Assembly (NCBI GenBank): GCA_029210175.1
Contig: JARGPL010000027.1
Span: 62,001-126,000, forward strand
Length of the DNA stretch: 64,000 nt
Direction: 5' to 3'
From: Minwuia sp.
Lineage (GTDB): Bacteria; Pseudomonadota; Alphaproteobacteria; Minwuiales; Minwuiaceae
In this document: in pieces, positions 24,320 through 32,928 of the stretch
How positions within the stretch are numbered: position 1 is the first letter of the stretch
Layout: each line of letters begins with the position of its first letter
Position numbers and translations under genes: made by a program
Notes under the pieces: generated by a model
The model's input: the letters and a program-made list of their open reading frames with translations, nothing else
Told to the model about the DNA's origin: nothing
Database searches by the model: none

Positions 24320-25375
24320 ATGAATGATGAACCGGTAACACGGGGCCGAACCCATGTTTCAGCACGGCAGCAGAGCCTGCCGCAGGGCGCATTTCCGCGC
24401 GTTCGCATGCGCCGCACACGGGCGCAGGACTGGACCCGTCGCATGGTGTCGGAGCAGGTCCTGACGCCGGCGGATTTCATCTGGCCGCTGTTCGTGCATG
24501 AGGGATCGGGTGTCGAGGATGTCGACGCCATGCCCGGCGTGAAGCGTTACGATGTGGCCAGCCTGCCCCGGGCCGTGGCGGAGGCGGCAGATCTGGGCAT
24601 TCCGGCAATCGCGCTGTTTCCTGCCCTTGATACCGACAAGAAGAACGCGGAGGGGACGGAGGCGACCAACCCCGACAACGTCGTCTGTCGCGCCATTCGC
24701 GCCGTGAAGGCGGAGGTGCCGGAGATCGGCATCCTCTGCGACGCGGCGCTGGACCCCTTCACGTCCCACGGCCATGACGGCGTCATCCGTGACGACTACG
24801 TCACCAATGATGAAACGGTCGAGATCCTGGTACGCCAGTCGCTCAATCAGGTGGAAGCCGGGGCGGACATCATCTCCCCCTCCGACATGATGGACGGGCG
24901 CGTCGGTGCCATTCGCCAGGCGCTGGAGGCCGAAGGCCACGTCAACACGATGATCATGTCCTACGCCGCCAAGTATGCTTCCGCCTTCTATGGTCCGTTC
25001 CGGGATGCCATCGGCTCCCAAGCCAACCTGGGCAAGGCCAGCAAGGCCACCTATCAGATGAACCCGGCCAACGGGGACGAAGCCATGCGGGAAGTCGCCC
25101 TGGACATCGCCGAAGGCGCCGACATGGTGATGGTGAAGCCCGGCATGCCATACCTCGACCTCTGCCATCGCGTGAAGTCGACATTTGGCGTGCCGACCTT
25201 CGCCTATCAGGTGTCGGGGGAGTACGCGATGCTGCAGGCAGCGGCGGGCAACGGCTGGCTGGACCTGGAGCGGGTGATGCTGGAAAGCCTGCTCGGCTTC
25301 AAGCGCGCGGGCTGCGACGGCGTCCTGACCTATTTCGCCGTGGAAGCGGCGCGGAAACTGAAAGAGCTTGCCTGA
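24320..25375 (+). CDS. hemB: Porphobilinogen synthase (5-aminolevulinate dehydratase)
   Basis: A 351-residue HemB joining two 5-aminolevulinates to porphobilinogen in heme and corrin biosynthesis. The two active-site lysines are Lys218 (MSYAAKYASAFYGPFRDA context) and Schiff-base Lys273 (MVKPGMPYLD). The metal loop reads CDAALDPFTSHGHDG, aspartate-rich in place of the zinc-binding cysteines, as in other alphaproteobacterial magnesium/potassium-dependent HemB. The start at 24320 follows GGGGGAAGAGAG; an upstream in-frame ATG at 24191 would add a non-conserved tail. The CoA-transferase gene starts two bases after its stop, so the two may be co-transcribed. Confidence 0.95.
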   Translation: MNDEPVTRGRTHVSARQQSLPQGAFPRVRMRRTRAQDWTRRMVSEQVLTPADFIWPLFVHEGSGVEDVDAMPGVKRYDVASLPRAVAEAADLGIPAIALFPALDTDKKNAEGTEATNPDNVVCRAIRAVKAEVPEIGILCDAALDPFTSHGHDGVIRDDYVTNDETVEILVRQSLNQVEAGADIISPSDMMDGRVGAIRQALEAEGHVNTMIMSYAAKYASAFYGPFRDAIGSQANLGKASKATYQMNPANGDEAMREVALDIAEGADMVMVKPGMPYLDLCHRVKSTFGVPTFAYQVSGEYAMLQAAAGNGWLDLERVMLESLLGFKRAGCDGVLTYFAVEAARKLKELA

Positions 25376-30644: not shown

Positions 30645-31157
30645 TCAGGCCGTGCCGCGAATCGGATAGCCCTTTTCCTTGATGAACTTGATGCCACGCA
30701 GGATGCTGGCAATCTCCGGTCGTGCGAACGGGGCGTTGGAGATGTCGACGATCTGCACCTGACCCTCGCCATTGACCACGAACATGCCGGGTTCCGGGAA
30801 TTCATGATCGGTCTCGTTCGGGCGCGGGGTCGAGACGTACAGGCCAAGCTGCTTCATATGCGCCACCGTCAGGCCATAGCCGACCGGCACCTTGACCTCG
30901 GTCTGTTCGACAGCCGCCTGGGCCTGTGCCTCCGAATCGCCGGAAACAGCAACCACATCCAGCCCGAGTTCCGTGATCTCGTCCTTCAGGGCATCAAGGC
31001 CACTGAGATAGCGCATGCAGATCGGACAATGCTTGCCGCGATAGACGATGACCATGCGCCAGTCGCCCGTCGGACCCAGGTTCAGTTCACCGCCGCCGAG
31101 TTTCGGCACCGTAATGGACGGCATGGCACCGCCTGCCGTGATCTTCCCGCTCATCAT
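30645..31157 (-). CDS. Peroxiredoxin-like AhpC/TSA family protein
   Basis: A 170-residue thioredoxin-fold peroxidase. The redox motif is KHCPICMRY with Cys44 and Cys47, matching the C-x-x-C arrangement of AhpC/TSA and PrxQ-like proteins, with the expected WRMVIVYRG strand before it. It should reduce peroxides in the cytoplasm using thiols. A GGAG site precedes two adjacent ATGs (31157 and 31154), either of which could be used. The gene lies 44 bases downstream of the rpoH-type sigma gene on the same strand and ends at a clear terminator, so read-through from the sigma gene is likely. Confidence 0.88.
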   Translation of the reverse strand: MMSGKITAGGAMPSITVPKLGGGELNLGPTGDWRMVIVYRGKHCPICMRYLSGLDALKDEITELGLDVVAVSGDSEAQAQAAVEQTEVKVPVGYGLTVAHMKQLGLYVSTPRPNETDHEFPEPGMFVVNGEGQVQIVDISNAPFARPEIASILRGIKFIKEKGYPIRGTA

Positions 31158-31201: not shown

Positions 31202-32110
31202 TCAGGCGGCCATGTCGTCGGTGATGGCAATCGGGCGACCCGCATCTGCCGCATCCCGGGCGCGACGCAACACGCCATCGGAAAGCTTCTGCAGGGCCTT
31301 GTGCTCGATCTGGCGTACCCGTTCCTTGGTCACGCCTAGCTGAACGCCCAGTTCCTCCAGCGTCACCTTTTCCTCATTCAGCTTCCGTTCCTTGACGATC
31401 AGCTGTTCGCGGTCGGTCAGGTCGGACAGGGCTTCGCGCAGCCACACACCACGGGTCGCCCCGTCACGCACGGTCTGCGTCACCTCTTCCGGAGAGGGCC
31501 GGTCGTCCACCAGGAAGTCACCCCATTCGTCGGAGCCTTCCTCACCCGCCGGGGCATTGAGGGACTGGTCCTTGGCCGACAGCCGGTTGGCCATGGCAAT
31601 GACTTCGCGGGTCGAGACCTTCAGCTTCTCGGAAATCTGGTCACGGGCCTCTTCGGTCAGGCTGGTGACACCTGCACCGTCGATCTGGGCGCGCAGGCGG
31701 CGCAGGTTGAAGAACAGGGCCTTTTGCGCGGCGCTGGTACCGGACCGGACAATGGACCAGTTGCGCAGCACGTATTCCTGCATCGACGACCGGATCCACC
31801 AGGTCGAGTAGGTGGAGAACCGCACGCCCCGTTCCGGTTCGAACCGGGCCGCAGCCTGCATCAGGCCGACACAGCCTTCCTGAACCAGATCAGCACGCGG
31901 CAGGCCATAGGCACGGAACCGTCCGGCGACCGAGACCACCAGGCGCATGTAGGCAGAGACCAGTTCATGCAAGGCACGCTCATCACCATGGTCGCGCCAG
32001 CGCAGTGCCAGATCCTGTTCGTGTTCGAACGAGAGCAGGGGCGCGGACATCGCCGTGGAGATGAACTGCTGTTCCTGCCGTACCGACTGCATCGCATTAT
32101 CATGAATCAT
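31202..32110 (-). CDS. rpoH: RNA polymerase sigma factor, RpoH family (RpoHII-like)
   Basis: A 302-residue sigma-70-family factor. The RpoH box QKALFFNLRRL after region 2.4 marks the heat-shock sigma group. Region 2 reads DLVQEGCVGLMQAA with RFSTYSTWWIRSSMQEYVLRNW, and region 4 ends in VTKERVRQIEHKALQKL. The WWIR and NWSIVRSGTSAAQKALFF pattern matches the RpoHII branch of alphaproteobacteria, which in Rhodobacter controls the singlet-oxygen and oxidative-stress regulon, better than classical RpoH. The start ATG 32110 is preferred, with GGTGA upstream; the longer frame is not conserved in character. It is divergent from a MarR regulator across a long inverted repeat and followed by a peroxiredoxin gene. 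Confidence 0.88.
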   Translation of the reverse strand: MIHDNAMQSVRQEQQFISTAMSAPLLSFEHEQDLALRWRDHGDERALHELVSAYMRLVVSVAGRFRAYGLPRADLVQEGCVGLMQAAARFEPERGVRFSTYSTWWIRSSMQEYVLRNWSIVRSGTSAAQKALFFNLRRLRAQIDGAGVTSLTEEARDQISEKLKVSTREVIAMANRLSAKDQSLNAPAGEEGSDEWGDFLVDDRPSPEEVTQTVRDGATRGVWLREALSDLTDREQLIVKERKLNEEKVTLEELGVQLGVTKERVRQIEHKALQKLSDGVLRRARDAADAGRPIAITDDMAA

Positions 32111-32206
32111 TGTCGTCACCCGTCTTTCCGGCTCCGCCCGTCGAACCCGCCAGGATTCGCTTTCCCCCGGACCGTGCCTTGCTGCGACCGACTGCCCCTT
32201 GGCAAA

Positions 32207-32277
32207 TTGGTTTCGCCTCGATACCTTAATGCAGCACGTTCGAGCCTCACAAGCATTAATTTTCGAGTCGAAACCAA
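32207..32277. promoter_or_regulatory. Long inverted repeat between rpoH and marR (operator candidate)
   Basis: Two arms of about 25 bases (32207-32232 and 32253-32277) are inverted copies that differ at only a few positions; both read TTGGTTTCG, then CTCGA, then TTAATGC from outside in. They are separated by 20 bases. The right arm contains the perfect 11-bp dyad TTCGA-G-TCGAA and ends directly at the marR start codon; the left arm has a degenerate copy. A possible minus-strand promoter for rpoH (TTGTGA, 17 bases, TTAAGG) lies between and within the arms. This suggests that one dimeric regulator, probably the MarR protein, controls both genes. Confidence 0.6.
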
Positions 32278-32928
32278 ATGACCGTGAACGACGGCCAGAC
32301 CAGAAGTGACAACGCTGATGCACGCCCCCCCGCCGCCCTGCCCGGCGCGATGGACCATGCGGCGCGTGTGGCCGAACTGATTGACCGACTTGGCCGGATG
32401 ACCCGCGAACTGCAGTATGTGGATGGGCTGAACCCGGCACAGTGGGAGGCCTTGCGCTATCTCAACCGGGCCAACCGCTATTCCCGCACCCCCGGCGGCG
32501 TTGCCGAGTTCCTCGGCGCGACGAAGGGCACGATTTCCCAGACCGTCTCGGCCCTGGAATCCAAGGGGCTGATCGCGCGCACGCCGAGCGATCGCGACAA
32601 GCGTGTCTGCCTGATCGACCTGACGGACGAAGGCAAGCGGATGATCGCCCGCGATCCCGTGCGCTGTATCGAGACGATTGTCGGCGAGATGGATGAGGCG
32701 ACGGCGGCCCAGATGGTCGGTGGCCTTGGCCGATTGATGGCCAGCCTGCAGATCGAACTCGGTTCCAAGCCCTTCGGCGTCTGTGTCGCCTGCTGCCGCC
32801 ATCTGGCCCCCGACGCGGGCTGCAAGCAATCCGAAGGTGCCCCGAAGTGCGGCATGACCGGGGAGCCGCTGAAAGGCGATGCGCCGCAGCGAATCTGCGT
32901 CAATTATCTCAACGACGCAGCCGAATAA
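32278..32928 (+). CDS. MarR-family regulator with cysteine-rich C-terminal tail
   Basis: A 216-residue regulator. A winged-helix MarR core (about 27-160) has recognition helix TKGTISQTVSALESKGLI and wing PSDRDKRVCLIDLTDEG. It is followed by a tail with six cysteines: Cys169, Cys172, Cys173, Cys182, Cys191 and Cys207 (FGVCVACCRH, GCKQ, KCGMTGEPL, ICVNY). The spacing suggests a metal or Fe-S site, or disulfide switches. There is no ribosome-binding site before ATG 32278, which abuts an inverted repeat, so the mRNA may be leaderless or translation may be controlled. It is divergent from the RpoHII-like gene, so a redox-sensing repressor of that gene is plausible (inference). Confidence 0.85.
   Translation: MTVNDGQTRSDNADARPPAALPGAMDHAARVAELIDRLGRMTRELQYVDGLNPAQWEALRYLNRANRYSRTPGGVAEFLGATKGTISQTVSALESKGLIARTPSDRDKRVCLIDLTDEGKRMIARDPVRCIETIVGEMDEATAAQMVGGLGRLMASLQIELGSKPFGVCVACCRHLAPDAGCKQSEGAPKCGMTGEPLKGDAPQRICVNYLNDAAE

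Follow-up and report, generated by a model that had tools for sequence, protein, structure and literature searches.

Our analysis of a 64-kb window (the whole stretch of Minwuia sp. DNA analysed, 64,000 nucleotides) indicates that the 71-bp inverted repeat between the divergent genes marR and rpoH2 very probably comprises two palindromic candidate operators for the adjacent MarR-family protein, one at each divergent promoter, through which MarR would repress both marR and rpoH2. Across alphaproteobacteria, the candidate sites co-occur with MarR homologues having four invariant C-terminal cysteines. The features of the region are:

30645–31157, minus strand: AhpC/TSA-family redoxin gene (Pfam AhpC-TSA, 60.7 bits), downstream of rpoH2
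31202–32110, minus strand: rpoH2-type sigma-32 gene, 302 aa from MIHDNAMQS, divergent from marR
32207–32277, no strand assigned: 71-bp inverted repeat, with arms at 32207–32232 and 32253–32277
32209–32225, no strand assigned: left (rpoH-side) candidate operator GGTTTCGCCTCGATACC, centre 32217, without GANTC
32259–32275, no strand assigned: right (marR-side) candidate operator ATTTTCGAGTCGAAACC, centre 32267
32278–32928, plus strand: marR-family gene, 216 aa, with four C-terminal cysteines (C169, C172, C191 and C207)

A palindrome in each arm of the inverted repeat

The repeat contains 21 pairs in blocks of 9, 5, and 7 around a 20-nt loop, with one C/A mismatch and one small internal loop with unequal sides, bearing out a preliminary description of two facing arms of about 25 bases separated by 20 bases. 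The final base of the right arm, 32277, lies immediately 5′ of the marR ATG (32278), and the palindromic core that had been described in this arm, TTCGAGTCGAA, is present as an exact copy at 32262–32272, the sole match with at most one mismatch in the window. Scored by gapped local alignment, the repeat reaches 17 and ranks second among the inverted repeats of the window (the top one, with a score of 19, has inner ends at 25162/25174 and a short loop). The initial impression of a repeat far longer than chance would give holds within the intergenic stretch, where none of 2000 Markov-shuffled versions of the 166 bp reached a score of 17, but fails window-wide, where a score of at least 17 was reached in 16 of 40 Markov-1 random windows of 64 kb. 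The repeat alone is not exceptional, and we take it to be real and meaningful because it is conserved.

Each arm contains its own palindrome, with consensus TAGTATCGA-S-TCGATACTA and centres at 32217 and 32267. Specifically, the left palindrome reads GGTTTCG-CCT-CGATACC, and the left operator matches a 17-bp pattern with one mismatch and scores 20.8 bits with the operator matrix described below, while the right operator matches the pattern with two mismatches, scores 23.3 bits, and has GAGTC, a GANTC site, at 32265–32269. These two operators are the only places in the window that score at least 7 bits. The repeat is lengthened by TTAATGC/GCATTAA flanks on the inner side of both palindromes; the flanks are similar in close Minwuia and, by eye, are not mirror-image in L006 and L007, which are more distant Minwuia loci. 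The arms look inverted because each holds a palindrome and because the Minwuia promoter flanks happen to mirror each other, and the long hairpin of the Minwuia repeat is incidental.

Co-occurrence of the sites with Cys-tailed MarR homologues

The marR product is a member of the MarR family, matching PF12802 (MarR_2) with 54.4 bits over 27 and PF01047 with 36.8 bits over 24.6; MarR_2 is matched in 58 of 58 homologues. AlphaFold2 predicts a winged-helix MarR fold (mean pLDDT 73.9, core mostly >80), and the best Foldseek matches to the model are MarR-family entries (MepR, E 2.4e-7). C169, C172, C191, and C207 are invariant in all 58 aligned homologues, and no cysteine before position 169 is invariant among them; OhrR, a thiol-sensing MarR, has a conserved reactive cysteine near its N-terminus. 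The protein scores 22.8 bits with the NCBIfam OhrR model (cut-off 200), and with no NCBIfam equivalog of the family does it reach the cut-off, the best being FabT, with 38.4 bits versus 200. No Pfam domain was found in the Cys tail of the window's MarR, and in the AlphaFold2 model the tail has low pLDDT and no assignable fold; because the tail is modelled with low confidence, an oxidant or metal signal there is a guess.

The divergent sigma-32 gene matches NCBIfam PRK07500, which we take to be RpoH2, with 383 bits over 315, and lies below the cut-off for canonical RpoH (283.4 bits to TIGR02392 versus 323.1). Because the canonical RpoH is encoded elsewhere in the same assembly (G000:C28; TIGR02392, 379.4 bits over 323.1), the sigma factor beside marR is a second, RpoH2-like paralogue. 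The redoxin gene is also found downstream of rpoH in L001–L007, and ChrR-like cupin domains (PF12973) are present in 12 of 12 genomes searched, so that their presence does not bear on an RpoE–ChrR link either way.

A profile search of genome contigs, with an alignment of 12 orthologues as query, yielded 69 named loci, in 48 of which an rpoH2-type sigma-32 gene is divergent from marR. Seventy-two upstream regions (the window, L006, L007, and L031–L099) were used to construct a symmetric 21-bp operator matrix, with leave-one-locus-out scoring. Conservation across relatives, proposed with the preliminary description as a check, was borne out: at least two matrix sites are present upstream of 53 of the 72 MarR homologues, one site in 6, and none in 13, while controls with the final matrix gave 0 of 72 for reversed sequence and 0 of 68 for stretches 600–980 nt downstream. 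These locus counts are not independent, because relatedness and near duplication are common among the loci (L052/L053, L073/L074, and the Minwuia set are examples). For a held-out set, a second draw of 385 genomes of the class was searched, 51 matched, and the best 30 made loci; 21 of these duplicated the training set and one more, with 24 nt upstream, was dropped, leaving eight upstream regions, seven with two or more sites and one with a single site.

The 13 siteless loci comprise L082, L084, and 11 of the 13 loci in L087–L099, in which the protein match ends before the Cys tail; a single site is present in each of L094 and L097, the remaining two loci of that group. L082 (Rhizobiales bacterium) and L084 (Aestuariivirga) are exceptions, having a Cys-tailed MarR with neither an operator upstream nor an rpoH neighbour. 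Single sites are present in L067, L072, L085 (weak), and L086, with short upstream DNA in L072 and L085. Conversely, rpoH is absent beside marR in L077, L081, and L083, which have two sites each, and in L086, which has one; the sites therefore go with the Cys-tailed marR and not with rpoH. In these four loci, the gene divergent from marR encodes a ~240–250-aa protein with a signal-peptide-like start, for which no Pfam match was found in the three tested (L077, L081, and L083). An AhpC/TSA redoxin is encoded near marR in L077 and L083.

Scanning of genomes for the motif, also proposed at the outset, recovered the operator pair in seven Minwuia genomes but no other recurrent promoter. In particular, the 17-bp pattern with at most two mismatches occurs at 3–7 places per genome, versus 0–2 in the reversed control, and, as judged by positions and listed sequences, only the marR–rpoH2 operator pair recurs. 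In G000, TCGANTCGAWACC occurs without mismatch at the right operator only, among the matches listed, and the three other places of the 17-bp pattern lie apparently in coding sequence (two) and near a possible gene start (one); the latter is not matched by any place listed for the Minwuia relatives. Neither the seven Minwuia genomes nor a matrix scan of the 69 loci (401,688 bases) revealed a recurrent second target; in the latter, four places outside marR upstream regions score at least 11 bits. One of the four is an isolated operator-like site of 20.4 bits, TATGTTTCGGGTCGAAACTAT, at ~4395 in L099 (a Magnetospirillum MAG; match start +1394), away from the MarR homologue. Because only the one pair recurs, MarR looks dedicated to the marR–rpoH2 promoter pair, and wider effects, if any, would be exerted via RpoH2.

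These observations bear on the possibility that the palindromes serve another regulator, such as a global stress or cell-cycle factor, instead of the adjacent MarR. Proteins other than MarR might well recognise a palindrome centred on GANTC; however, the sites accompany Cys-tailed marR even where rpoH is missing, they are absent from most of the loci with a match lacking the Cys tail (none in 11 of 13, one in 2 of 13), and they lack the genome-wide scatter in Minwuia that a global factor's sites would show. We therefore consider another regulator unlikely.

GANTC centres, promoters, and operator spacing

Of 108 sites, 88 have GANTC at the palindrome centre and 107 have C or G as the middle base; among 50 pairs, GANTC is present in 48 marR-side and 32 rpoH-side sites. 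A RAMA-domain (CcrM-type) match was obtained in 12 of 12 genomes, 11 of them above cut-off; in G000, a 361-aa reading frame at L148 is CcrM-like, as judged by the RAMA match and its resemblance to CcrM. GANTC is rare in the window (80 seen versus a mean of ~298 in 20 Markov shuffles, ~3.7-fold depleted), as expected for a genome with CcrM. CcrM/GANTC-regulated promoters occur in alphaproteobacteria, and the operators might double as CcrM sites, with methylation after replication altering MarR affinity, which would put RpoH2 under cell-cycle control in addition to the MarR signal. The GANTC centres and the RAMA matches resemble what such promoters have; unlike in such promoters, GANTC is contained automatically in any intact TCGANTCGA core and is absent from the Minwuia rpoH-side operator. 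For these two reasons, methylation gating is a possibility only, and one that we regard as distinctly doubtful.

Promoter elements can be proposed by eye for both directions, and all three assignments are tentative:

32223–32228, minus strand: proposed rpoH2 −10 element TAAGGT, from an alignment in the rpoH direction, abutting the left operator
32247–32252, minus strand: proposed rpoH2 −35 element TTGTGA
32255–32260, plus strand: proposed marR −10-like element ATTAAT, overlapping the edge of the right operator

The rpoH2 −10 block reads TAAAGT in close relatives. By eye, no −35 element is evident for the marR promoter, and a scan for consensus sigma-70 promoters found none. A TATA-like block of its own promoter adjoins each operator. 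Read towards rpoH, 34 of 46 loci have CTTG and 42 have TTG at 25–45 nt upstream of the rpoH-side operator centre; at the equivalent position towards marR, CTTG is present in 3 of 46. TTG at −35 is likewise the conserved element of Rhodobacter RpoH promoters (PMC3441632), and by this analogy it is possible that RpoH2 feeds its own promoter. A search of 32111–32400 on the rpoH strand for the exact words TGATC and GGAAC found neither, giving no sign of RpoE-type control of rpoH2 by these words. Both words are ECF-type motifs.

The spacing between operator centres is 44–61 bp in 46 of 47 loci and 16 bp in one, and is 50 bp in the window; the 47 loci are those with rpoH and two strong sites at a 14-bit limit, which left out L036, L037, and L069, where one of the two sites is below 14 bits. 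A spacing of 16 bp is seen in L036, L037, and L070, and a third site is seen in L040, L069, and L071, so that some lineages arrange these sites differently. In 46 loci, the two sites match better as direct repeats in 17, better as inverted repeats in 18, and equally well in 11. Because both spacing and relative orientation vary, the long hairpin is not the conserved element; conservation extends to no rigid loop and no long stem, and the position of each operator seems to be set by its own promoter.

The same data weigh against an RNA structure at the marR start, which had been raised as an alternative to protein binding, and more generally against a 71-bp hairpin or cruciform that controls initiation of marR translation or serves as a terminator or processing site. 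The window repeat does fold strongly (−24.7 kcal/mol; z −5.7 on the plus strand and −4.7 on the minus strand), but folding is weak in three relatives (z −1.4, −2.1, and −1.7), the two sites are on average equally alike in direct and inverted orientation, their spacing is variable, and transcription starts inside the arms, as promoter placement suggests, would leave neither mRNA with both arms. We judge this reading to be highly improbable. A chance inverted repeat without function, for which the scores in random windows could be cited, is next to inconceivable, since sites are kept upstream of marR homologues down to ~37–42% identity and the controls are empty.

The proposed switch and known systems

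The reading we favour thus remains two candidate operators for MarR, one per divergent promoter. The preliminary idea of two dimers setting both genes stands insofar as each arm is self-palindromic and the pair recurs in distant alphaproteobacteria; the binding itself, like repression, the signal, and the exact start sites, is what we infer. In the proposed switch, the operators would cover the −10/start regions of the marR promoter (plus strand) and the rpoH2 promoter (minus strand), and one MarR dimer per operator would block both promoters, so that MarR would repress itself and RpoH2. A signal received by MarR, which might be an oxidant or a metal acting on the four-cysteine tail, would free the DNA, and release of MarR would let RpoH2 turn on its own regulon.

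MarR, MepR, OhrR, and SlyA belong to the MarR family and repress their own genes through palindromic operators located in divergent promoters. The present system resembles them in its MarR fold and family, in its palindromes of ~17–21 bp, and in the divergence of marR from the presumed regulated gene; it differs in that the neighbour encodes an alternative sigma factor and in that the protein has a four-cysteine C-terminal tail. A literature search covering titles and the beginnings of abstracts found no published account of a MarR–rpoH2 switch. The system thus apparently combines a commonplace mechanism, autorepression by MarR at paired operators, with an arrangement that this search did not find in print: a conserved, seemingly dedicated MarR switch on rpoH2. 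The exact bases, the protein, and the cysteines can now be named, and the matrix allows the site to be sought in other genomes.

Control of RpoH2-type sigma factors is best known from the RpoE pathway of Rhodobacter. RpoHII of Rhodobacter sphaeroides is directly controlled by RpoE (PMC3441632). The Minwuia gene is likewise a second RpoH paralogue beside a canonical RpoH, with a link to oxidants suggested by the redoxin neighbour. In contrast to RpoHII, the rpoH2 promoter region here has candidate MarR operators and a proposed TTG-type −35 element, and lacks TGATC and GGAAC in the 290 nt upstream. A widespread, dedicated MarR–RpoH2 switch with a defined 21-bp site would mean that this sigma factor is wired in a second way.
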